Source of the DNA: Diphasiastrum complanatum
Taxonomy: Eukaryota; Streptophyta; Lycopodiopsida; Lycopodiales; Lycopodiaceae
Direction of reading: 5' to 3'
Length of the DNA stretch: 64,000 nt
Assembly (NCBI GenBank): GCA_029204225.1
Contig: CM055092.1
Span: forward strand, 27,758,320-27,822,319
In this document: in pieces, positions 13,560-59,469 of the stretch
Layout of the letters: each line of letters begins with the position of its first letter
How positions within the stretch are numbered: the first letter of the stretch is position 1
Program-made: the position numbers and the translations under genes
Notes under the pieces: model-generated
Database searches by the model: none
What the model was told of the DNA's origin: nothing
The model's input: only the letters and a program-made list of their open reading frames with translations

Positions 13560-14294
13560 CACATGGCTTCATTTCGCTTGCATAGCTCCACCTTTTGATG
13601 TCATTTGGAGCAGCGAGAGTTCTAAGATCCTGGGCTGCGCTAGCAAACAACAGCAGGTACCAGTTTTCTTCTTTTTGTCATACTTTTCAAGCTAATGGAG
13701 ATCATCACGCTTTTGATCCTTATTATCTTTGATTCACTTCAGCAGATCACGCTTCTATATATAATTGCCCCGTGGAATGAATGAGAGTACTTTAATCACC
13801 GGTACATGCATGCAAGCAGCTGCATGCTCACGCGGATGCAGCGCTAGCAATATTATTGATCGACTCTCTGAGTACTTTATCGACTCCACAGGCTGCTGCT
13901 GATCAGGTATATATAGCGTCTCATCTTCTGTCAGAGCTTCCGTTTCAGACAATTGTGAAACTTGAGCCATTTTATCAAAATTGTTGAAATTCAATATAAT
14001 CCTAATTATATAATGGGTCTTCAAACAATTTCGAGGTTTACCCATTGTCTGTGTTCTCATACGATGCGGATTGAGGGTTTTTTTATCATTTCTAGCTGTA
14101 TATTCTCGCCTCTTCCTTAATTACTTCCCCATGATATGAATCTACCAGCTTGATCAGGTCAGTCATAATTAGCAGAACCTGCATCTCAGTGTCACATTAT
14201 CCTTAACTTTAAGCTGTACCCAGACTTGAAATATTGATATCCCAATTGCTTTTGTTCTTATGCAGCGTCCCTAAGGCTTTGCTTACAGCTGACC
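13560..14294 (+). promoter_or_regulatory. Promoter/5' UTR region with probable UTR intron of the CID7-like gene
   Basis: A donor-like CAG/GTACCAG at 13656/13657 and a strong acceptor TTCTTATGCAG ending at 14265 would remove a 609-base intron in the 5' UTR, leaving 29 bases before the ATG. An open minus-strand frame at 13755-14060 shows no homology and is probably incidental. No TATA box was firmly identified. Confidence 0.5.
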
Positions 14295-15038
14295 ATGGCA
14301 GCGGCAGTCATCCATCGGCCAATGGCCGCTTTGAATCCCAATGCTAAAGAATTTATTCCTTTAGCTAAATATGTTTCATCTGATTATCAAACGATCATTA
14401 ATGATCTGCAACTAAGCCTGCTCGCTGCTGAATTTCCCAAGTTTGCAGTGAAAAGTATGGCTGAGCTGCTTTACGCCAATGATGGTGATCTCATGCTGAC
14501 AAGACACATGCTCAAAGAGGAAGAAGCCATCCCTTGGCTTCAAACGGGTGACGCTGTTGCAAGCTTATATGCGGACATGCGAAAAGAAGCCGAAGATCAT
14601 GCTCTTGCTCGCGATGCTTATTTTGAGCAGGCAAGGCAAGCCATGGCCAATGATGTAGGCAACAAAGTACTTGCACACCAACTAATTGCGAAAGGCAGTT
14701 GGCACAATGAGCAAATGAAAGATGCTCACACTAAAGCTGCAGAGGCCATCTTTCAACAAAGAAACCCGCCTGCATCTAGGCAAAGGCATCCAACACTACT
14801 GGATTTGCACGGCCTGCATGTGAATGAAGCCATTTTGATAGTGAAGCGTGAGCTTGCGGCACTAAAAACTAAATATTCAAAATCAAAACGGAAGCAAATT
14901 TTCCTTTGTGTTGGAACGGGACATCATTCTCGAAGCGGACATCCTAGATTGCCATCGGCAATTGCAAGATACTTACTTGAAGAAGAGCATCTCTACTTTA
15001 CGGAAGCTCGACCAGGTATGTTGCGGATTATTTTTTGA
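14295..15038 (+). CDS. CID7-like protein: PAM2 motif, CUE-like, DUF1771 and Smr domain
   Basis: The frame has 247 codons and no intron. Near the N-terminus (about residue 13) LNPNAKEFIP is a PAM2 motif, which in plant CID proteins binds the MLLE domain of poly(A)-binding protein. Residues 38-75 resemble a CUE-type helical bundle (LLAAEFPKFAVKSMAELL...GDLMLTRHML). Residues 91-155 (ASLYADMRKEAEDHALARDA onward) form DUF1771. Residues 166-247 are the Smr domain, with LDLHGLHVNEA, the TGHHSRSG loop and GMLRIIF at the end. Smr domains bind or nick nucleic acid, so a role in mRNA metabolism is likely but inferred. Angiosperm CID7 proteins are about twice as long; this one lacks their long linkers. 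The ATG at 14295 is the first in frame and precedes the PAM2 motif, which supports it. The gene appears intact. Confidence 0.88.
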   Translation: MAAAVIHRPMAALNPNAKEFIPLAKYVSSDYQTIINDLQLSLLAAEFPKFAVKSMAELLYANDGDLMLTRHMLKEEEAIPWLQTGDAVASLYADMRKEAEDHALARDAYFEQARQAMANDVGNKVLAHQLIAKGSWHNEQMKDAHTKAAEAIFQQRNPPASRQRHPTLLDLHGLHVNEAILIVKRELAALKTKYSKSKRKQIFLCVGTGHHSRSGHPRLPSAIARYLLEEEHLYFTEARPGMLRIIF

Positions 15039-30504: not shown

Positions 30505-33500
30505 ATGGCGTCAGCTGCTTTGAAGGCATTCTGGAATCACCCAGCAGGCCCAAAAACCAGTTAAGATCTATGGTCTCTTCCTTGCACTTTTCGAATCAAT
30601 GATTGCTCTGTCAAATCTATTTCTGCGCACAAAATTTGATCCACTGCAGTAAGTGCTCGTGTCTGCTATGGGTACATGCCAGGAAGGACATGAAATCTGT
30701 AGGTTTTAGTGCTGAAAGTTGGAAGATCTGCAACTGGAAACCGCCTAACGACAGTGGTCGATGCAATTAGTGTACATGGTTAGAATGATTTTGCATTTGT
30801 TTTTTTGATTTGGGCCAGCATAACTGGACCTATTATGGCCGAGGATCAGAATTGCAGACTCTTTTTCCAAATATTCTTAGTGCCTTTGGTTTGACATTGT
30901 CTCTAAATAGGACGATGGAGTTTTAAGCCCTACTCTTTTGGATTTCAGAATCAACTCATTGATCTTCACTACTCTTAGTTGAAGATTGTTATTTGATTCT
31001 TCGATTTTCTCTATCCAACACTGGCATTTGCGAAGCTGTACTTAAGATTGCCTACGTCACTTGGTGTTCGAGAACTTTCAAGTGCCAGGATTAGTATATT
31101 TTTCTGCCATGAGTATACTAATAGCTAAAAGGTTGGTTAGAACAACTTATTTCAGCTCTATTAATGGCTTACGAATTTCAGGCTCATCGTGGAAAGACAC
31201 GACCTCCTATTGCATCATTCACATTTGTTGGTCCATTGCTGGGGGGGACAACACATGTGCACTTATTGTGCTTCCTCGTTGGTCTTTTATCCATCGTTGG
31301 TCGATTACTGGTCCTTTGCAGCAGTAACATCCTTCTTATGGTAGCTTTATACTCATCACTGCTCATCAATAGTTCATCACTGGTTAATGTCATCCCATCG
31401 ACCTTCTACATCACCTTTTAGTAGAGGGAAGTCACTTGTCACCTTGATTTATCTAGCGGTGTTCCTGTTTAATTTCATCGTTTGAGTATATCATCTCGTC
31501 ATGGATTGTCACATTGTTTTTGACAGCTGGAGAATAATTTATGGTTCTGTATCACTCATTGTTGGTCGTGTTGAATGTTTCTCATCTCTAAAGTTCAGCT
31601 CATTTTTGGTCCACTGCATATTTTGAGTCATTGCAAGAGAGGCAGCCACTATAAATATATCATCATCAACATGGATAAAAGCTAATGTGGATGTGTGTGA
31701 CTGTGCATGTGACCTAATATACTCGTGGGCATCGACAAATTGACTAGGCATGTCACAGCATTTACTTCACACAATATGCATGATGGAACATGATTGTGCA
31801 TGCGTCCTAGCCTACACTTGGGCATTGGAAATGATCTTGATAGTAAAGCAGTCCTATCACTCCATGGATATTTCATCTTCTCCAACTTTCCAAAATTGGA
31901 TTTTCAAGAGGAATGTCCTAGCAATTCTTTTGTGTCAATCAGAGATAATATTTTGGAAAGCTAACCAAACAGAATGCATCTTCCAATGCATCAATTACTT
32001 CAATTGTGCAAATATTGTTCAATGTAGAAATTCATGTTCGGAGATCATATGGAATATCTTTGTCATCATGGTGATCTTCAAAAGAAACTACATTGAGAAA
32101 CTTGTTTTATTGCATAGCAGATTCAATATTGGCCTAATTCCTTGTGCGCAAATGACCAAACGGATTTGCTAATCTTAAACTTTCTCTTATGAGATCTGGG
32201 AGCTTCTCTTCTTGAGAGTGATGGCTTTTGCCTCTTGGTGGTTCATGTGCCAATTCCTTCACATGAGAGCTTGATTATGCTCTAGCTTTTTGAACATTTT
32301 GTGGAATTTTGCGTACGCATTTTTTTTTTCCATACTTGTCATCGTAGTTGTCCGTTCTGCAATTTGATAAAATCCCCCTCCCCTCGACTTTTCTCTAAGT
32401 TGTTGTAGGTTCATTCATTTTTACCAAATTTTGAACTAATATAACTTCTCCGTTTGAGCTCGGATTTCAATGCAGTAAAAAACAAAATTCACTTACCAAA
32501 TTCGGACATAGTATCCGTACCTTGAAGTTCAGCTATCAAGGATTATCACTTTCCTCGCAAGACTCTTTCCCTTAAGTACAAGGCTTACCACTCTTCAACA
32601 AGTACGTGTTTCGAAGGGTACAGTTCTCCAATACTTTGTAATCATGCAAGAAGTAGCATCGGTCTAAAACATGCACTATATACATAGATAGAACTATTTA
32701 TTATAGGTTGAGCTTCATGAAAAGTAACAAATGTAGCATATGCTATGCTTTCATTTGACAAGTATGGCCTGAGTTTTTCTTGGATGATGCAATGACTAAA
32801 GTGGAACAAGTTTAGGAAATTTTCAAATTTCAAGTTTATTCATACAATTTTCAGTAGCTAAAAATGAAAGAAGAAACTTAGGGGCTTTTTTTATTTTAAT
32901 CTTTACTACAATGTCATTCCTATCGTTGATTTTCATAAGTATGCCCAATAGCCATTAAGTCTTTTCTTATGGTGATTGTTACGTCCCTAGTTAACTCTAG
33001 TTGACCAAGTCTTGAACATGGGTGTTGGGTATACCCTATTTAACGGTTAAGGGTCTCTTGAGGTCCTAATTCTTGAAATAGATGATAAAATTAGTTGTAA
33101 TGTGTATTAAGGATCTTAGAGGCTAGTGTTAGGGTGGCTACTTATACTTGGGCATAGGAAGTGAAAATTGCTATATTTACCAAGGGTAGAAGGACATTGT
33201 GAGAGTGTATATAAAGGTCAAAAACCTTACATTTCCATTTATTTTATCTCGTCCTAATTTATTGTGGAATAGTTGCTGGCTGGTTCTAATCCTTTTGCTA
33301 CTCATAGTTAGGATTACTCTCCTGAGTGGTAAGGTAGTATGGGAGGCCATAGCTAGGAGCCTAACAATAGTTGATATTGTGATTCCCATAGCTTAGGGGT
33401 GGGTGAGCTTTATTGAACGTGTCTATATCTCTAACAAATTGTCTTTTGTGTGAGTTATATCGTGTTTTTTGATATCTAGTTTATCCTTGGGAGCGTTTAT

Positions 33501-34488
33501 AGTGGTACCAGAGTCAAAATTGGATCATGTTATCAATAATGAGCTAAAAAGATTATTCAATAACGTGGAAGGATTCTACATCAAATAGAAGCTTGAATTG
33601 GCATTATCTTCTTTGAATGGAAGAGAAATCATTGGTGTTTGTTGTATCATGGCTAGCTAAAAGTTTTCTACTATTTTTTACGCTGAACGATGGATATATA
33701 TAGTGGTCTATGGCTGGTGCATTCCAATTTAGCTAGGATATCTTAGTTTCATAGTTGCAGCGCGATTCCCGAATCGCGATTCAGAATCGCGATCAGAGAT
33801 TCTGATTCGCGATTCGGGATTTTCCCAGAATCGTGTAGAATCGATTTTTTTTTTTTTTTTTGAAATTTTTTAAGGCAATATGGGTATCAGATGAAAGCTC
33901 TGATCGAGGGGATTATGATTGTGTAGTTTGCCGACTGTTTCGGGTGCGAAACACCAAAAAGTGTGTTTTCACTCGGGGAGTTGGAAGGCCAAATCATGAA
34001 GAGGCCTTACCGTCGGGGCCGGGGTCTATCGGCAACCCCCGGACCCCGCCGTTGGGGGGCGTTGCCCCCCAAACCCCCCGTTTCTCGGGGGGTTACTGCC
34101 CCCCGAACCCCCCGTTTCCAGGGGGACTACTGTCCCCCGAACCCCCTAGAGCTTCTTGCTAGATAGACACTGTAGATAAAAATGCCACCGCCCCCCTGTA
34201 GATAAAAATGAGGTCCAAATGCGCGCCGAGAAGGGCCCAATATTTATGCCCCCAACTGTATGTACATTGCACTCACATCTCCAGTGAACCAATTGCAAAA
34301 GTGATCATCATCCATACAGTTGATAGTCCAAACTGTAACATTAACATTTACTGAAAACCAGAGCAAATGACAACCGAATAGCTACTGAAAATAAGATCTG
34401 TTTGTGCCTCATCTACTGCACTTCTGAGAGGCAAAACGCTGGTTTGACCATTGATCCCCTAAAAAAAAGTTAAGCAATAAGCTATTTT

Positions 34489-34519
<31 letters not shown>

Positions 34520-37500
34520 GCGATTCTGGTTCGCGAATCGCGACCAGCGAATCGCGATTCGCTGCAACTATGCTTAGTTTATATCATTTCAAAAGCATAA
34601 AAGCAAGGAAATGAAGGATTTGCCACCGTTAAAAAAAAATTTTAAAAAAAATGTGCGCCCACCCCGGATGCGCCCACCCCCGGACGCACCCGGGTGCGCC
34701 CGGGCGAGGACGTGCGCGCCCAGATGCGCGTCCGCGCCCGAGGTCCCCTACCTTAGGTTTACTGTACCTTTGAACCATAGTTGCAGCGAATTGCGATTTG
34801 CGAACCGCGATTCTGCGAATCGTGATTCGAACCCAGAATCGTTAAAAAAAAAAAATTATTAGTTTTGTTTTTTTGGAAAAATAGCTTATGGCTGAAATTG
34901 TTTTAGGGGAGCAATGGTCAAACCAGTGTTTTGCCTCCCAGTAGTGCAGTAGATAGGGCACAAACATATCTTATTTTCAGTAGCTATTTGGTTGTTATTT
35001 GCTTTGGTTCTTAGTAAATGTTAATGCTACAGTTTGGGCTAAATATTGGGCCCTTGGGTTCTCTGCCTCTGTCCCACTGGAACCATCTGTGATGGTAACG
35101 AACATGCTAGAGGTTAGTTTTGAGTTTTTATCCTTGACAGAACCCAACATGGATTAATGCACCTAAATTGGACCATCTTGCACCCGAACAGTCGGCAAAC
35201 TACACAGTAATATTGCTCTTGATCAGAGCTTTCATCTAATACCCATATTGCCCAAAAGAAAATAAAAAAAAAAAAAAAAACGATACTGTACGATTCCGGT
35301 ATTTTTCTGAATCGCGATTCGGACCGCGATTCAGAATCGCATTGCATCTATGCTTTGAACTTTTGTAAGATTAGAATATTTCAATATTGATAGGATGATT
35401 GCATGGCTTGTTACGACTCGTGTTTAGCAAAAGATTAGATCTTGCAAGATTAAAATTGCAATTTTTTTCTATTTTTGTGCATAGTCTATGTCAAACATAG
35501 ACACAACTGTGTCATGCACTGTCATAGGGACGCTCTAGCCTCTGATTGGTGTAGAATGTGGGCTACAAACATCTAGTTGGGAGAATCTACATGACTTTTG
35601 TCATATTTTGACAAAAATTGTCATGAAATTGCGGTTTTAAAAAAATTCCTTGTATGGCAACAGCAACTCATCTGCGAATCCAATAGGGCTTTTTGCATCT
35701 CCTACATTGACAAAGTGAAGTTTTAAAAATATTTGAGCCCTATTTATCTACCATTGCATGACCTGCAATGAACTAATGAGTGACAGATAAAAATATTTGA
35801 TATTGATAGAAAAAAACCAACAATTTCTAGTTATAATGGTGAAAATACAGTTATTTTTAGCAATTTCACTTTACACAATTATTAACATTGCAATCTTTGA
35901 TAAATTGGTAATCAGGAAATCCATATTTTAGGTAGAAAACAAAATAGTGCTGAATTTCAGAAACATTGTGGCCAATTTTAGCTAAATTGGCTATTGTACC
36001 GTTTTCGGCTATGTTTTTCAAAAAACAATTGCTAGGGAAAAGCAAGAGAAACTACTTTTTATCACCATTTACTCAATATAGGTTGACTGACGGTTTGGGT
36101 GCTGCAGTTCATTTCTGGGCACCTACTTTCAAATGGGGAATAACCATTGCCAATATAGCTGACTTTGCTAAACCTCCAGAAAAGCTTTCATATCCTCAGC
36201 AAATTGGTAAGTAGTGATTTGCAATTTGGATGACTTAAGGTTTATTATATTATTCATCTTCATTGCACTCCCCTGAAAAAGGAGATATACGGGCTCAACG
36301 TTGACATCTACAACATACAGATATTCTGGAAGAATGAGAAGAAAGTGGTGTGCTGCTGTATGCCTTTTCGTTTCCTCTTTTGATCTGACGCTTGTTTGTC
36401 TTCTATATTAGTTATTGGGTTTTTGACGTGACATTTTGAAAACAGCTGTAACTGCAACAGGCATCATCTGGTCACGTTACAGCACTGTCATTAGACCGGT
36501 ACATTCCAGTATCCATTCTGTCCATATAAAGTCTTTGGATTTGTTCCATAATTTGTGCTCAAAGTATGCTAAGTAGGTTTTTGCCAATTATATAACTTGC
36601 TAATCGCACCTGTGTTGAGCATCTTCTTTGGATGTTTTTTTACAATCATTCTGTTCACATTGCTTCATTTGTTTAAAGAAAATTGAGATTGCGGTTTGCA
36701 ATGAGTTCTCCAATAGAATGAGTGATGCAGATTATTTGATAAGTCGTTCAAGAGATTGTGATAAACTCCTTTAAGAATAAAGACAAGATGTTCATACTAT
36801 TTATTCATGGTCAGTGGCGAATCAGCAAAGTTTGAACTCAACCATATAAAAGAGCACAAATGCCAAGTATGCACGCGAAGTAGTGAAAATCATAAAGCCA
36901 CTTTGGGGAATGAAACAGAGCATGCAAGCTCCTGGCTATGATATATTTGAAGAGTACAAGGACTCAAAATTTAAGGAATATAAGGCTACATCCAGAGTTA
37001 TTTATGCTGCAACTTCTTGTTCGCTGAACATATTAACAGGACAGTGCAAAAGCTTCCTTGTTATACTTCGTATATATGGACGATTGTGAAGTTTGTACCT
37101 GACAAGTTTGAAACTAGACGAGCACCATTAAAGATAGTTGTTAGTGCCAATGGTTCAATATCGAACTTACCTCCTTGACCTTTCCTTTTTCCTTAGAATG
37201 GTATTCGAGATTATTAGTTTATTCTTGGGGTAATTTGGATAAAGAAACTTCTTCAAATATTATTGTTTGATCATTTTTGCAGTGCTCACAGGCTGATTGC
37301 ATAAGATTGAAGACTCCTTCTCATTGACTGGCTTTTAATTGACCAAGGAGGAAGTTCTGAAAAGGGCTTATATTCAGGGCATTATTTTGGAAAGCTAGCG
37401 TCTTGTTAAAGTTGAATTGATAAGCTAAGGATCCATGCTAAGACATTTCCTCATATTTGTCTAAACTTCGCTTGATCTGAATTATAGAAACTCTTTTTTG

Positions 37501-40500: not shown

Positions 40501-41117
40501 CATTGAACTTAGAAACAATTCATATAGGTAGAGGGAGGCTTCTTGTTTCCTTATCCAATTTCCAAAACATGAAAGGTCACTTTCTGGAAAGGATGAGCAA
40601 CATAAAGCTTGGTTTGACTGGCAGGTTTTATCTGATGCACCATGTGGGATCCCATTTGATGATACTTAGATCAAAAGCATCAATTGTAGTAAGTTTCAGC
40701 TCTTTAACGAGAGCTTAAATTTCCAGTTCACACTAATAGCTTGCTTTGTATTGTGTTGCAGCGAAATTGGAATTTATTCACTGTCAACGTTTTTATGGGT
40801 GGAACAGGCATCTATCAACTTTCTCGAAAGATTAAGTATGTGGGTCTTGTGCATTTCTGCTACTTTCCTAGTTGTAGGGGCTCACCAGTTTGAGCTTTGA
40901 GCCGGCTAAGAGATCTGTATAGTTTTTACAATGGGTTTATAGAATGAACCCAAAGTAACGAATTCTCAGCTGAATTTGATAGCTTCTATATAGTCAGAAG
41001 CTGATGATGTGTTTTACTGGAGAGAGGATATGGCTTTCCGTTGTGACATGAATATTTGTTTCTTGCAGGCACGATTATTTTGAAGATAAAGCTGTTGAGA
41101 CTGCCAAAGAAGTTTGA
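30505..41117 (+). CDS. Mitochondrial pyruvate carrier subunit (MPC2-like), five exons
   Basis: The exons are 30505-30559, 36108-36206, 36446-36498, 40762-40835 and 41069-41117, all with GT-AG borders and consistent phase, giving 109 residues. The first ATG is followed by MASAALKAFWNHPAGPKT. Exon 2 gives the family core HFWAPTFKWGITIANIADF and PPEKLSYPQQI. Exon 3 gives AVTATGIIWSRYSTVIRP, exon 4 NWNLFTVNVFMGGTGIYQLS and exon 5 HDYFEDKAVETAKEV. The length matches plant MPC proteins (about 110). In the family this small inner-membrane protein pairs with a second MPC subunit to import pyruvate into mitochondria. It has short hydrophobic helices and an amphipathic N-terminus. Introns 1 and 3 are 5.5 and 4.3 kb and full of transposon relics. 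All splice sites and codons look intact, so the gene is probably functional. The donor of intron 1 (A/GTTAAG) is somewhat weak. Confidence 0.95.
31539..31751 (-). pseudogene. Possible Copia RT scrap in intron 1
   Basis: The minus-strand frame contains STLAFIHVDDDIFIVAASLA, which resembles the YVDD catalytic block of Copia RT with Tyr replaced by His. No other RT block is visible, so this may be chance. Confidence 0.3.
32977..33502 (+). repeat. Probable solo or truncated LTR in intron 1
   Basis: It begins TGTTACGTCCCTAG, a Gypsy-like LTR start. It is followed at 33503-33515 by TGGTACCAGAGTC, two or three bases from an initiator-Met primer site. The right end does not finish in CA, perhaps through mutation. 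No internal region follows beyond about 200 bases. Confidence 0.5.
33743..33750. repeat. 8-bp target duplication, left of MITE-1
   Basis: CTTAGTTT is repeated exactly at 34573-34580, right after MITE-1. Eight-base duplications are typical of hAT transposition. Confidence 0.85.
33751..34572 (+). mobile_element. MITE-1, hAT-like nonautonomous DNA transposon (822 bp)
   Basis: The ends are CATAGTTGCAGCG and CGCTGCAACTATG, perfect 13-bp inverted repeats, flanked by the duplication CTTAGTTT. Inside each end are several copies of GAATCGCGATTC-like palindromes, then long T runs. The middle matches MITE-2 in inverted orientation. A GC-rich array (34046-34147) is present here but not in MITE-2. There is no transposase, so mobility would depend on a partner elsewhere. 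Confidence 0.9.
34046..34147. repeat. GC-rich tandem hairpin array inside MITE-1
   Basis: Two 34-bp units (34080-34113 and 34114-34147), each starting GTTTC and ending CGAACCCCC, follow a more diverged unit. Each contains a G5-6...C5-6 palindrome, for example GGGGGGCGTTGCCCCCC at 34054-34070. The composition contrasts with the AT-rich surroundings. Confidence 0.85.
34581..34767. other. GC-rich patch between the two MITEs
   Basis: Positions 34650-34745 are dominated by GTGCGCCC/GGGCGCAC words preceded by A/T runs. It may be the end of another broken element. No gene is seen. Confidence 0.4.
34776..35352 (-). mobile_element. MITE-2, inverted relative of MITE-1 (577 bp)
   Basis: It starts CATAGTTGCAGCG and ends GCATCTATG, with exact 8-bp duplications CTTTGAAC at 34768-34775 and 35353-35360. 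Its interior aligns with the reverse of MITE-1, including GGCAATATGGGTAT near one end and the CAGTAGCTATT region near the other. The termini again carry several GAATCGCGATTC-type palindromes. The right inverted repeat has several mismatches. Confidence 0.88.
36207..36445 (+). other. Intron 2 of the pyruvate carrier gene
   Basis: This short 239-base intron (GTAAG...AACAG) separates exons 2 and 3. No repeat is visible. Confidence 0.85.
37719..38201 (+). repeat. 5' LTR of a Gypsy element in intron 3
   Basis: TGTAACGGACC at the left and TTTGTAACA at the right give TG...CA ends. Two bases later lies TGGTACTAGAGCC (38204-38216), a worn initiator-Met primer site. About 100 bases (37922-38015) recur at 39735-39840, sharing AATGATCACCGAGGCA, as expected for paired LTRs. 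Confidence 0.65.
38850..39640 (+). pseudogene. Ty3/Gypsy integrase, broken
   Basis: The zinc-binding H2C2 region reads HLHMDKTIELVSRHFFWPHM and YVQCGSACQVNRAEWVRP. Core-like sequence follows: FSGTKKMMITLQLVELFIEH and IASLHGVSETILPG. Later come AFNDKKHMSIRMRLLELDYG and VPCAVEFLTRMLDMVELARQ. Stops and frameshifts separate them. A 41-bp tandem duplication sits at 39027-39108. Confidence 0.82.
39027..39108. repeat. 41-bp tandem duplication in Gypsy integrase relic
   Basis: Units 39027-39067 and 39068-39108 both start GAAATACCCTATGGCAG and differ only at the last base. The near identity points to a recent replication-slippage duplication within old sequence. Confidence 0.95.
39700..39840 (+). repeat. 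3' LTR fragment of the intron-3 Gypsy element
   Basis: It aligns with about 100 bases of the LTR at 37.9 kb (GTTTGGAC..., TAATGATCACCGAGGCA, TTACACCTT) and is then lost. This repeat bounds the integrase relic on the right. Confidence 0.6.
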
Positions 41118-54546: not shown

Positions 54547-55089
54547 TGTTAGAACCTTTGGAATGAGTCCAAATTATGCTTAGATACAAGAGAGAGAAGA
54601 TAGGAGCTATTTTTGGTAATTTTTGCATTGTTGAGGGATCTCCAAGATTCCAACCCTAACTTGATAAGGATGAAAGATCCACCAAAATTAGCATTAGGGA
54701 TAGGTTTAGGGCTACTCATACCTGCCCAAAACCGTGATGGATCATGTATATATAGGTGATGATATCTCACCAGATCAATCAAGCAATTTCATGATTTTTC
54801 TCTCATAATGGTGCAATTGCTCTCTATGTTCATAATTGTTTGAGTACTTGTGATTACTAATGATTATAGGATTGAATGTAGGTCTGGTGTACAGTACTCA
54901 GACTGTGGGAGACCGTACTTTCACACGTGTGAAGCCTTCTTCAAGGATTTGGGCCGTTTAGTGAGGTTCAAGCATAGATTTTTGATGGATTTTGATGGTT
55001 CAACTTGTGCTAATCTTATGAAATCATAATCTATTGTTTTCCTCATCATTTCAAGTGTTTTAGGATCCTTATTTGCTGTAATTTTCACA
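54547..55089 (+). repeat. LTR with G-box palindrome, plus strand (543 bp)
   Basis: The LTR starts TGTTAG and ends TTTTCACA directly before the primer site. A TATA-like GTATATATAG lies at 54746-54755 and TTCACACGTGTGAA at 54920-54933. Both words recur in the minus-strand LTR at 20144-20760. The start edge is inferred from the TG and the length. Confidence 0.75.
54746..54755 (+). promoter_or_regulatory. TATA-like box of the LTR at 54547
   Basis: GTATATATAG is identical to the word at 20489-20498 on the minus strand, at a comparable place in the related LTR. Conservation between copies supports a promoter role. Confidence 0.5.
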
Positions 55090-55102
55090 TGGTATCAGAG
55101 CC
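55090..55102 (+). other. Primer-binding site, plus strand
   Basis: TGGTATCAGAGCC, a perfect initiator-Met site, directly follows the LTR end. The next ATG is only seven bases on, at 55109. Confidence 0.9.
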
Positions 55103-55108
55103 TAAAGG

Positions 55109-55960
55109 ATGACAGAAGGTATCATATTACCAGATTCTACTGAACTGATTGAACTTGCACCTGGCAGATTTGTGCATGTTTCAAAGTCACTTGGAGAATC
55201 GGAGTTAGCAGAATTCACTGAATTATTGAAGGAGTATCAAGATGTTTTTGCCTGGTCGCTCGACGATTTGAAGGGTATATTTGCAGAATTCGGAGAGCAC
55301 CGTATTGATCTTAAGGAAGATGTTGTACCTGTTCGACAGAGACAACATCGTCTCAATCCTAAGTACTCTCTCATGGTTAAGGACAAACTCAACAAACACC
55401 TTAAGGCAGGTATAATCTATCTCGTCTTAAGCAGTGAATGGGTTTCACCCATTGTGGTCATCCCAAAGAAGAAGACTGGCAAAATACGAATATGCCAGGA
55501 TTTCCGAAAACTCAATGCTGCCACAAGGAAGGATCATCATCCTCTGCCCTTCACTGATTCCATCTTAGATCAGGTTGCTGGTCAGGAGCGTTACAGTTTC
55601 TGTGACGGTTTTTCTGGTTATAATCAAGGTGGAGTGCAGAAGGAGGATCGTTCAAAGACCACATTCACTACGGATTGGGGCACTTATGCCTACAACAAAA
55701 TGCCCTTTGGTCTTTGTAACGCTCCAATGACTTTTCAGCGAATCATGATGTTAATATTCGCTGCCTTCCTAAGAACTTTTCTCGAAATATTTATTGATGA
55801 TTTTTATGTATATAGTGATATAAAGACGCACCTGCAGAAGCTGAAAGTAACATTGCAACGGTGTCGAGATACTTGTTTATCTCTTCATCCAGAGAAATGT
55901 TTTTTTGGTATGAAAGAAGGGATATTACTCCTACCATCACTATTGGATGATGTTTGCATC
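55109..55960 (+). pseudogene. Ty3/Gypsy reverse transcriptase, truncated
   Basis: An uninterrupted frame of 376 codons runs to 56239, of which the first 280 or so are Gypsy RT. It has EYQDVFAWSLDDLKGIF, HRLNPKYSLMVKDKL and KAGIIYLVLSSEWVSPIVVI. It continues with GKIRICQDFRKLNAATRKD, SFCDGFSGYNQ, NKMPFGLCNAPMTFQR and the catalytic FIDDFYVYS. The N-terminal DVFAWS block and FIDDF box resemble the Tat/Athila branch. Gag and protease are missing, since the frame starts right after the primer site. After about 55960 the codons no longer look like RT, and the frame crosses a foldback repeat. Confidence 0.9.
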
Positions 55961-56016
55961 ATCACTGAGACTTCAAAAAAAATGTTGATCCTTTTTTTAG
56001 CCTTGTTTTGTATTAT

Positions 56017-56150
56017 GGAAGGAGCCGGGCAGAGGCCATTCTACATGGTAAGGATTTCCAGAATTTTTTTAGGCGAGGCCCGGAGGGGCCTCGCCCAAAT
56101 TTTTTTTGGAAATCCTTATCGGGCAAAATGGCCTCTGCCCGGCCCCTTCC
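56017..56150. repeat. 134-bp foldback (near-perfect inverted repeat)
   Basis: The arms 56017-56083 and 56084-56150 start GGAAGGAGCCGGGCAGAGGC and are inverted with about 85% identity. They meet at GGCGAGGCCC-GGAGGGGCCTCGCC. The element is GC-rich in AT-rich surroundings. No clear target duplication was found. It may be a foldback MITE. Confidence 0.85.
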
Positions 56151-56181
56151 ATTGTGTAATAGATTTTTGGACCCTTTTTAA

Positions 56182-56299
56182 ACCAATCCTTAGCTGCCAC
56201 GTGGCAGGTGCAAGCAAAATCAGCGCTAAAAAAATTTGAGACCAATCCGATGTTGCCACATGGCAGACGCAGGCAGAATCTGCACTAATTTTTTTTTTA
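56182..56299. repeat. 59-bp tandem repeat with a palindromic core
   Basis: Units 56182-56240 and 56241-56299 both start ACCAATCC and carry TGCCACGTGGCA (56195-56206) or TGCCACATGGCA (56254-56265). The first core is a perfect 12-bp palindrome with a central CACGTG. Confidence 0.8.
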
Positions 56300-56697
56300 A
56301 AAAACAGGTGACTATTCTGCTTTTTAATTTGTTCATAAATGGGCAGAATAGTCACCAAAAGTCCATTACGTAAAGGCAAGAGTCTCTCCTCACTTTGGTC
56401 CAAGGAGATTTGTGAAAACAAAATCATATTAAAAAGAAGGGCCCACTTTCTAATTTATGGGTGCTTTCAAATTTAATTGCTTAACTGTGCATGATCTCAA
56501 TGTTTAATTTTAGCTACATGCACCATATATGTGTGTGTGTGTGAGAGAGAGAGAGAATGTATACGGTTCACGGTGGGGCTCAATTTTTTCAATGTGATCT
56601 TCCGATTTTTTTTTTTGTCGAAGACAGTTTAAAAATCACTAATGATGATGGTTTTTCATTCGCGAGCTAGAAATTGATATGCATAGCCGTATCTTTG

Positions 56698-56745
<48 letters not shown>

Positions 56746-57271
56746 TTGAATGTGTGTGTGTTTTGTGATGCATGTCAAAATAAAAAATTAATTATTTCAA
56801 CTCTTGTGTATTTGGAGGGTCATTTGTATTCTTTTTGATGTTAGAATTGGGACGTTGAACAAAGTTCAGTTCAGAGTCCAGAATTATCCGAGTCTCCAAC
56901 GTTACCGTTGCCAGTTGCAACGTGTCACAGTCAAATCAATCCACGTGCACCCCAACCTCTGTAGGTCAGCTGCTTCGGTAAGGCCAATGTTATGACATTC
57001 TTTCATTCACTTATGGGAGGAGACAAAGGTGAGGACGTGGCAGATTTTAGTCAGTCCACGTGGCTATAGCGGGGTGACTTGGCATTGGATGACTTAGACT
57101 GCGCCACCGTTGGATCTAGCTGTGGGCTTCCAGATTCTGCCCTCACGGTTTTTCAATCAACGATTGAGAAGAGACGAGGTGACAAGATTGCCACCTGGCA
57201 TAAATCCAACGGATTCTGTGTAAAATATCCCGCTCTACTCAGGCCCCATCGGCCCCCCTTCTGTCCCTTTG

Positions 57272-57278
<7 letters not shown>
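56300..57278. other. Upstream region of the RING-CH gene
   Basis: No gene is seen. A (GT)n/(GA)n patch lies at 56529-56556 and (GA)n at 56701-56735. The promoter of the RING-CH gene is expected near the right end. CACGTGGC at 57057 is a possible G-box. Confidence 0.45.

Positions 57279-57310
<32 letters not shown>
57279..57310. repeat. (CT)n tract in the probable 5' UTR or promoter
   Basis: CT repeats lie about 355 bases before the ATG of the RING-CH gene, paralleling the CT tract before the pyruvate carrier gene. Confidence 0.7.
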
Positions 57311-57314
<4 letters not shown>

Positions 57315-57665
57315 GACAAACGCGTCTCTCCTGCTCGTCTGCGAGCGATCGTGGGTGTAAGCAAGATCGGGGGTGGGCGCCATAGCTGCCCAGAATTTCT
57401 ATGCAAAAGATCGTGCAGTTTTTAACGCATATATCATTTATTTTGCCTTGAAATATCTCTCCCTTTCGGTTATTTAGTCCTGCAGCTGCTGCAGCAGCAA
57501 ACTAGCAGGAACAGCCTGTCCCATCCTCTTCTTGCCACTCCCTATTCCCCCTCACAAAACCTAGCTGCCCAATAATGATCGAGCTGAGATTGTGAAGCTG
57601 GTCATTGGAAGCTGCTATCTCAGGTGCACAACAAAATCAGAAAATTGTATTCAGGAGTTTTGATC

Positions 57666-59469
57666 ATGGAAAACCATTATGTTTTGGATGTGGATCGGCT
57701 TTGTGACTGCCCTTCGGCTGTTGATTCTTCCCGGGATATTCAATCCAGCCTTGTTGAAGAACAAGGCATTCCAACTTCGACTGCTCACATTGTTTCCTTT
57801 GATCTGGGTGACGATCTGCAGAAAGAAGCCCTTTGTGAAAATGAACATTGTGACAATGAAATTTGTGAAAATGAATTGAAATCGAGTGAAATAGGCATTA
57901 GAGGTGTAAAGAGTGGGAAAGCAAATCTTCCTGCTGGCCTTCCAGAGTGTCGAATTTGTCAGGACGAAGACGAGGAGGAGAATCTGGAGAGTCCTTGTGC
58001 GTGTTCTGGCAGTCTGAAGGTGGGCAATTTCAAGTGATTGTGACTGTTAGAGGGGAGAGAGCGTCCGTAAATAAGGAAATCAGAGAGGGATAGCTTTCTT
58101 TATTGTACAAAGAATCAAGAGGATGTATGGGACCGTTAAAATTTAGGAAATATATTTCAATGCAGCTCTGGATAGATGATCTTTGTCCTTTTGTCTTTAC
58201 AGTACATGTCATCAAATGCATGAAAAACAAGTCACCCTTGAGTCTAGTTCAGCTAAAACGTTTTCTTTTGCGGTCAAGTATGCCTTTCATGAGGTATACC
58301 TCCGATCTTTTGGCCAACTGGTTCCATAAGTTATGCCATTTTTGGCTCTAGCTTTGGTATGGTGTGAAAACTCCTGATATGCTGGTATCTTTCACAGTGA
58401 AGTAAGTTGCGAGCTTCATCTTCCACTTTTTCCTTCCTGCACACTTGAAAGATCTTGTTATTCTCTTTGTTTTACATTCTTCCATCTAGTCATTTCTATC
58501 TCCAAATTATTGGAGCTTACTACTCTCGGGTCTCATAGCGAATGTTATTTAAGTGTTGATACATTATCTTCACAATGCATATGCTCTCGGTATGATCGTT
58601 TGATTGACTTCCAGCTTGTAGAAGGATTTCTTTGAGATTTTGCCATTGCCTTTCCATTATCTTCGACTGGATCAAGTCTTTGAAACTTTACTTATCCTCG
58701 GGCAAACATTTTCCATCTATTCTCCATTTTCGGAGACATGTTTGCTTTATGCCGACCCTGCTCCTTTTTGGTTATTGTAGCTCTGTGAGGGTTCCTAACG
58801 GCATTCATTTCCTTGGCCTTGTTGATATATACTTTGAATTGATTTAAGGCCTCCTCTTCGATAGCGAGCAATACCATCTGTGTCTGCTAGTGGAGCTTGA
58901 ACCTTCACCCAACCTACAAGAAAAACCTCTTCTGCGCAGACTCTGCGCTTTCATGGCCCCTTTACAAAAACCAGGAACAAAGTACTGGTTGCAACTGTGA
59001 TAAAGTAGTTCGCCTCATCTTCCAATTCCAAAAATACATATTCCAGTATCCATTTTGCATTGCAAACCCCCCTGATACCCTCTTTCTACTTATGTATCCC
59101 ATTCTGATTAGTTTTAAACCACATACAAAGCTATTTTGTAGAAAAATGCCACTTACTAATGTGTTAACTTTAAATGCGACATTTAGGTCGCTGTCTTTTT
59201 TGTCAATCACCATAACTTTAGATTTCTCCACACTTAGTATCGAGTTGGAGAATCTGCAGAGTTTTCTAGTGTGCATTGAAGTTCGAACTTTTTCCTGTTC
59301 TTAGCAGAGGGAGCAGCATCTTTTTCATAAAGGAGCAGTAAACGCCATCGCATGCTACTTCCACTCTTCCTTAATTTTCTTAATTCATTTTCTAACTTTT
59401 TTCTGTCCTTAATACTTATTATTTCTGTTATGTAGAGTTTGGGAGACGAGACAGCCCTCTTTTATTCCC

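Follow-up and report, generated by a model that had tools for sequence, protein, structure and literature searches.

Two related hAT-like MITEs inserted in opposite orientations within a single intron of a mitochondrial pyruvate carrier gene, and the intronic hairpin predicted from them

MITEs are short mobile elements without coding capacity that carry terminal inverted repeats and occur in many copies of similar length. Among the closest described counterparts of the locus reported here are inverted MITE pairs and intronic hairpins that act as small-RNA loci in other plants. Excerpted text of one report (PMC10004981) states that DCL3 is able to produce 24-nt siRNAs from folded MITE RNA, and proposes intron hairpins as a source of miRNAs. 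In rice, one of 39 MITE-related miRNA genes was tied to inverted MITE pairs (PMC3237417, in excerpt), and in sorghum, MITE insertions have been associated with altered expression of host genes (PMC9048912, in excerpt).

Here we describe a pair of such elements, MITE-1 and MITE-2, in a 64,000-nucleotide stretch of the Diphasiastrum complanatum genome (the window). As in the inverted pairs and intronic hairpins excerpted in PMC3237417 and PMC10004981, related elements lie in opposite orientation and their RNA is predicted to form a long imperfect hairpin; those are described as small-RNA loci, whereas the hairpin here is a folding prediction. The arrangement very probably reflects two independent insertions of non-autonomous hAT elements from related subfamilies into the first intron of a mitochondrial pyruvate carrier (MPC) gene, with an inverse orientation most likely decided by the toss of a coin and a predicted hairpin most likely removed with the intron. 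The value of the pair is mostly that of a cleanly dissected case, found on two contigs, in which two hAT insertions came by chance to form a long inverted repeat inside an intron of a conserved transporter gene.

Table 1. Positions in the window of the MPC gene, the two elements and the predicted hairpin arms
Feature	Position	Strand	Basis
MPC exon 1, coding part (MASAALKAFWNHPAGPKT plus first base of the next codon), donor GTTAAG	30505..30559	+	reading frame, match to a plant sequence
MPC intron 1, 5,548 nt, contains both elements	30560..36107	+	exon joining
MPC exon 2	36108..36206	+	PF03650
MPC exon 3	36446..36498	+	PF03650
MPC exon 4	40762..40835	+	PF03650; computed end 40834, end 40835 set by eye so that a GT donor follows
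MITE-1 left target site duplication CTTAGTTT	33742..33749	.	sequence, script check
MITE-1, non-coding hAT-like element, 823 bp	33750..34572	-	sequence, script check, genome relatives
MITE-1 right target site duplication CTTAGTTT	34573..34580	.	sequence, script check
Inter-element spacer, prospective hairpin loop	34581..34767	.	sequence
MITE-2 left target site duplication CTTTGAAC	34768..34775	.	sequence, script check
MITE-2, 577 bp, internally deleted, of a related, more diverged subfamily	34776..35352	+	alignments, genome search
MITE-2 right target site duplication CTTTGAAC	35353..35360	.	sequence, script check
Hairpin arm I1	34324..34467	.	pairs with 34898-35041, 90% complementary
Hairpin arm I1 partner	34898..35041	.	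pairs with 34324-34467
Hairpin arm I2	33846..33939	.	pairs with 35187-35280, 86% complementary
Hairpin arm I2 partner	35187..35280	.	pairs with 33846-33939

The four exons of the host gene join in frame as a mitochondrial pyruvate carrier protein, with a PF03650 match covering exons 2-4; the remaining segment, which we take to be exon 1, was assigned by its match to a plant sequence together with the reading frame (Table 1). An earlier reading of the window from its letters (the sequence-only reading) had placed both elements within one intron of this gene, and they do lie together in intron 1, 3,182 nt from the donor to the start of MITE-1 and 747 nt from the end of MITE-2 to the acceptor, duplications included.

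The duplications CTTAGTTT and CTTTGAAC are perfect, flush with the element ends, exactly 8 bp long and not extendable, and the computed chance of a perfect 8-bp duplication is about 2.4e-5 per site. Here the sequence-only reading was largely accurate: the 8-bp duplication at each element, the coordinates of MITE-2 and the separation of 203 bases (the spacer plus two 8-bp duplications) all agree with the sequence read directly. Its bounds for MITE-1 were correct at the right end, 34572, and one base too high at the left, 33751 for a true 33750, the start of the duplication being shifted likewise; the common ends that it described are present at three of the four element ends as CATAGTTGCAGCG and absent from the right end of MITE-2, which reads CATAGATGCAATG. 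At its right, MITE-1 carries the end in common with the left of MITE-2 (CATAGTTGCAGCGAATC). Each end of both elements has GAATCGC/GCGATTC motifs, then an A (or T) tract and then the body, and all 14 occurrences of GCGATTC on either strand of the window fall within MITE-1 or MITE-2. The longest ATG-to-stop frame wholly within either element encodes 77 aa, and a 107-aa frame without a stop overlaps MITE-1. A hAT domain was absent from the 19 reading frames of the window scanned with Pfam, Rfam gave zero matches in the 64-kb window, exact matches were absent from the viral contigs (two patterns) and prokaryote contigs (one pattern) searched, and the string CATAGTTGCAGCG did not occur in the literature searched. 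Short, devoid of coding capacity, bounded by terminal inverted repeats and present in many copies of similar length, both elements have the properties of MITEs.

Aligned in inverse orientation, as the sequence-only reading had proposed, MITE-1 and MITE-2 match in two blocks, one of 267 columns at 79.0% identity (E 1.8e-63) and one of 172 columns at 77.9% (E 8.8e-36). The interiors thus correspond outside the middles, and the middles do differ: about 280 bp in the middle of MITE-1, with 60% GC, have no clear counterpart in MITE-2, from which an additional 63 bp of MITE-1 are missing. Nesting of a further insertion in MITE-1 was considered as the origin of its GC-rich middle and rejected, because the genome copies on the list match MITE-1 over its whole or almost whole length, with no gap at the middle. 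MITE-1 also contains a GC-rich tandem repeat of 34 bp in 2.5 copies (34063-34146), the GC-rich part being longer in the copy on a second contig, C2540, and a G4-like run that occupies about 34036-34079 of the minus strand.

The assembly to which the window belongs (1.745 Gb) was searched with each element. With MITE-1 as the query, the element itself and 39 other places were recovered nearly full length at 90-96% identity, these being the 40 scored of 4,190 first-look candidates; these candidates, and the 4,198 obtained with MITE-2, are unconfirmed copies from queries that share sequence, and the match lists are incomplete, the C2540 copy of MITE-1 being missing from the MITE-1 list. Sixteen of the 39 other places were fetched, all with CATAGTTGCA at both ends and with lengths of 823-866 bp. 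Their duplications agree at 8/8 positions in 13 copies and at 7/8 in three, and flanks compared at length 7 or 9 gave at least three and at least five mismatches, respectively, in the 16 copies. Three pairs that have a common duplication are apparently the same insertion on two haplotypes, which reduces the set to 13 distinct sites (10 at 8/8 and three at 7/8). Compared pairwise (136 pairs, with haplotype pairs counted and gaps disregarded), MITE-1 and these 16 copies differ by 2.9% on average, and since copies differ by only about 3%, the subfamily is probably young and recently spread.

The MITE-2 query gave 80 listed matches, itself included (40 scored of 4,198 first-look candidates). Apart from the window and C2540 (94%), the listed matches are 74-96% identical, most of them in two pieces; one locus, L003, is the single nearly full-length match among those listed, at 81%. 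In eight of nine other MITE-2-type copies that were aligned, the pieces are split by a stretch missing from MITE-2, L003 being the exception, and MITE-2 is, judging from these alignments, an internally deleted copy from a subfamily more diverged than that of MITE-1. Ends of MITE-2-type copies, located blind to the duplication, were placed at 22 of 30 loci, giving 28 entries; eight loci (L004, L010, L011, L013, L020, L021, L022 and L024) yielded no pair of ends. Four entries represent the window locus and C2540, and the remaining 24 collapse to 14 sites. The duplication agrees at 8/8 positions in six of these (L009, L014 and its copies, L019, L023, L027 and L030, an AT-repeat site where the flanks match at length 10 as well as 8), at 7/8 in three (L003, L005/L006 and L018) and at 6/8 in one (L012). 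There is no clear 8-bp duplication at four sites (L007, L008, L017 and L028), L028 having instead a 10-bp flank match with one mismatch, and the 8/8 duplication of L010 appeared only in an analysis where the duplication was itself a selection criterion. The duplication length of the sequence-only reading thus recurs in genome copies, at 8/8 or 7/8 in 16 of 16 MITE-1-type copies and 9 of 14 MITE-2-type sites. Neither of the outcomes that would have contradicted that reading, genome copies with other duplication lengths or interiors that fail to match, came about, although a clear 8-bp duplication is missing from four of the 14 MITE-2-type sites. Both elements belong to high-copy families, an ordinary and very abundant kind of non-coding mobile DNA. 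One relative, present as L005 (C2:17.66 Mb) and L006 (C442), has three successive right ends, one behind another, followed by the motif CTACGTAG after all three in L005 and after two of three in L006, which suggests that the end was duplicated repeatedly or that insertions are nested.

The target pattern nTnnnnAn is generally associated with hAT elements. It is the target consensus reported, in excerpted text, for the hAT element Hermes (PMC2803484). Among the 13 distinct MITE-1-type target sites, T stands at position 2 in 12 and A at position 7 in 11; the corresponding counts are 8 and 12 among the 12 sites taken from MITE-2-type copies and the window, a set restricted to duplications of at least 7/8 and with one copy of each imperfect duplication used. 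A start in CAT and an 8-bp duplication are compatible with P elements too, and membership in another superfamily with 8-bp duplications, P for example, is a rival reading. P-element MITEs are on record for angiosperms (PMC10004981, in excerpt), and the element end departs at its third position from the plant hAT consensus given in an excerpt of PMC6027215, [T/C]AGNGNNG or [T/C]A[A/G]NG: the terminal CATAGTTG agrees with the other specified positions of [T/C]AGNGNNG, and its CATAG has T where A or G is published. The nTnnnnAn target sites, as in Hermes, and the presence in the same genome of a hAT-coding family with a similar end argue against this reading, which we regard as quite improbable. 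Like plant non-autonomous hAT elements and hAT-like MITEs, MITE-1 and MITE-2 combine an 8-bp duplication with nTnnnnAn sites, occur in high copy number, and have short terminal inverted repeats and no evident coding capacity; unlike them, they have the deviant third base and end arrays of GAATCGC/GCGATTC. Their placement in the hAT superfamily, already made in the sequence-only reading and now resting on duplications in genome copies and on target sites, is well supported, the driving enzyme being putative.

The hAT dimerisation domain has at least 150 matches above the cut-off in the genome (4,364 candidates). Fifty of the 150 listed places were inspected: the top 30, each together with 1.5 kb of flank to the left and right, and a further 20, for which longer open frames were the main criterion of choice, together with the 1.2 kb downstream. 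A search for elements with these ends and an encoded hAT transposase, suggested in the sequence-only reading, gave many copies of the elements, and none of these 50 places held a transposase bracketed by CATAGTTGCAGCG-like ends and GAATCGC arrays. A relative of about 300 bp (L035 940-1241, mirrored in L036) adjoins a hAT transposase domain; its ends read CATAGATGTAGTG and CATAATTGCACCG, and the duplication around it, ATTGAAAT, is perfect over 8 bp. The hAT-coding family referred to above (L083/L100, DUF659 plus Dimer_Tnp_hAT) has many relatives in the genome, and its right end (L083 687-713) is CAAGGTTGCATTCAAACG with TTTGAAACG-like arrays. Where relatives stop matching suggests its 3' boundary: 11 of the 18 downstream stretches compared with L083 could be aligned, eight of them stopping at 709-714 and the others at 695, 701 and 168. 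The family ends in CAAGGTTGCA, which has 8 of 10 positions as in CATAGTTGCA. It resembles the MITEs in having such an end followed by short-motif arrays and differs in that its arrays are TTTGAAACG-like; because they differ from GAATCGC, the family is, on this comparison, a relative in kind and not the direct parent of the MITEs. An end CATGGTTGCAGTGGATTGTG, 628 bp past the open frame of L100, was rejected as the end of that hAT element, the similarity of relatives stopping earlier, at about L083 713, in CAAGGTTGCATTC. A candidate left end of the family lies at L100 586. Beyond the element, at L083 920-947, a separate end CATGGTTGCAGTGGATTGTGATCC is like the MITE end at 21 of 28 positions, with C/T and G/A changes, a match that falls short of significance when taken alone; this end may come from a related family of greater age.

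Both elements, with the same duplications, are also present on C2540. In the three stretches of C2540 that were compared (29.8 of its 49.8 kb), the long matches to the window are 99.2-99.8% identical and fall within its positions from about 7 to 46.7 kb. The copies there are 875 and 611 bp long against 823 and 577 bp, with A tracts and repeated motifs accounting for most of the difference. Given these near-identical matches and shared duplications, C2540 probably represents the other haplotype, which would make both insertions older than the split of the haplotypes; that it is the product of a recent duplication is conceivable. The two contigs are not fully collinear, about 20.7-21.4 and 22.0-25.7 kb of the window being absent from the compared part of C2540, possibly through insertion or deletion differences between haplotypes.

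In the reading that we prefer, a hAT transposase supplied in trans would have cut and pasted each element, leaving the exact 8-bp target duplication, and MITE-1, from the young subfamily, and MITE-2, from the related and more diverged one, would have arrived 203 bp apart at different times or from different sources. Related arms lying close together in inverse orientation could also be the product of one event, an inverted duplication or a single composite element. We give this next to no credence and rejected it: each element has its own, distinct 8-bp duplication, the middles and subfamilies differ, and the outer flanks are unlike each other, which excludes one composite insertion. Chance alone would give about two neighbours at 203 bp or less in the whole genome, half of them inverted (4,198 x 4,198/1.745e9 x 203), an estimate that takes the 4,198 unconfirmed candidates as the copy number; with a few close pairs to be expected in this way, the inverted arrangement needs no special cause.

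The sequence-only reading had supposed that the intron RNA could fold into a hairpin several hundred bases long, and this is strongly predicted. The minimum free energy (MFE) of the 1,619-nt element stretch is -819.6 kcal/mol, compared with -433.0 (sd 9.7, lowest -459.1) for 40 dinucleotide shuffles, and the elements folded singly give -295.2 and -158.7. Among 50 tiles placed along the window, the lowest MFE, -716.0, is that of the tile with the greatest overlap with the element pair, and the next lowest is -565.6. Between the elements, 372 pairs are predicted, 21 of them G-U, and the same 372 recur in the MFE structure of the complete intron 1; the longest run comprises 42 pairs (three G-U) and the longest perfectly complementary stretch 21 nt. 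It is plausible from these models that intron 1 RNA can form a long imperfect hairpin, a statement of capacity and not of occurrence. Under the two-insertion account, the MPC primary transcript would bring the elements together in a single imperfect hairpin, predicted at about 370 pairs, which would most likely leave with the spliced intron. The next most stable 1,619-nt tiles (-521.5 at 54561 and the -565.6 tile at 55801) overlap a retroelement-like frame judged by eye (54561-57419), where there are possibly other inverted repeats.

Occasional cutting of the hairpin by a Dicer-like enzyme could yield siRNAs matching the family, and those from the MITE-1 arm, if cut, would match many genome copies. 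A stronger reading makes the inverted pair a functional siRNA source, in which the MPC promoter would drive the intronic hairpin, Dicer-like cutting would follow and the young MITE-1 family would be silenced. The strong predicted fold, with its long run of consecutive pairs, speaks for such a source, as do the 800 24-mers of MITE-1, of which 644 are found in one or more, and 452 in eight or more, of the 16 fetched copies; the excerpted precedents from other plants (PMC10004981, PMC3237417) point the same way. Yet the longest arms are only 86-90% complementary and the aligned parts 78-79% alike, perfect complementarity stops at 21 nt, and just 2 of 554 MITE-2 24-mers occur among the 16 MITE-1-type copies, so that we think a functional source unlikely. 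Slightly less likely still, in our judgement, is a gene-driven anti-transposon locus, at which each round of MPC transcription would release hairpin siRNAs helping to silence the recently amplified MITE-1 subfamily genome-wide. Should small RNAs arise here, the locus would be a direct case of a random pair of insertions turning the intron of a housekeeping gene into a source of transposon-silencing RNA.

The hairpin might instead alter the expression or splicing of MPC, for example by drawing the intron ends closer, by stalling or by the spreading of methylation. The elements do lie inside an intron of a gene with four recognised exons in frame, and the sorghum association (PMC9048912, in excerpt) is a precedent, but the hairpin is far from both splice sites and the pair is present on both contigs, which leaves no contrast between alleles; an effect on MPC is, on balance, doubtful, to about the same degree as the anti-transposon locus. 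Of the exact matches listed for the elements against the four MPC exons joined together, none is longer than 9 bases, and small RNAs from the elements are therefore not expected to match this part of the spliced message. Elsewhere in the window, two further apparent genes were noticed, one with a DUF1771 frame and weaker Smr and PAM2 matches (14238-15035) and one with a RING-variant frame (57588-58034).
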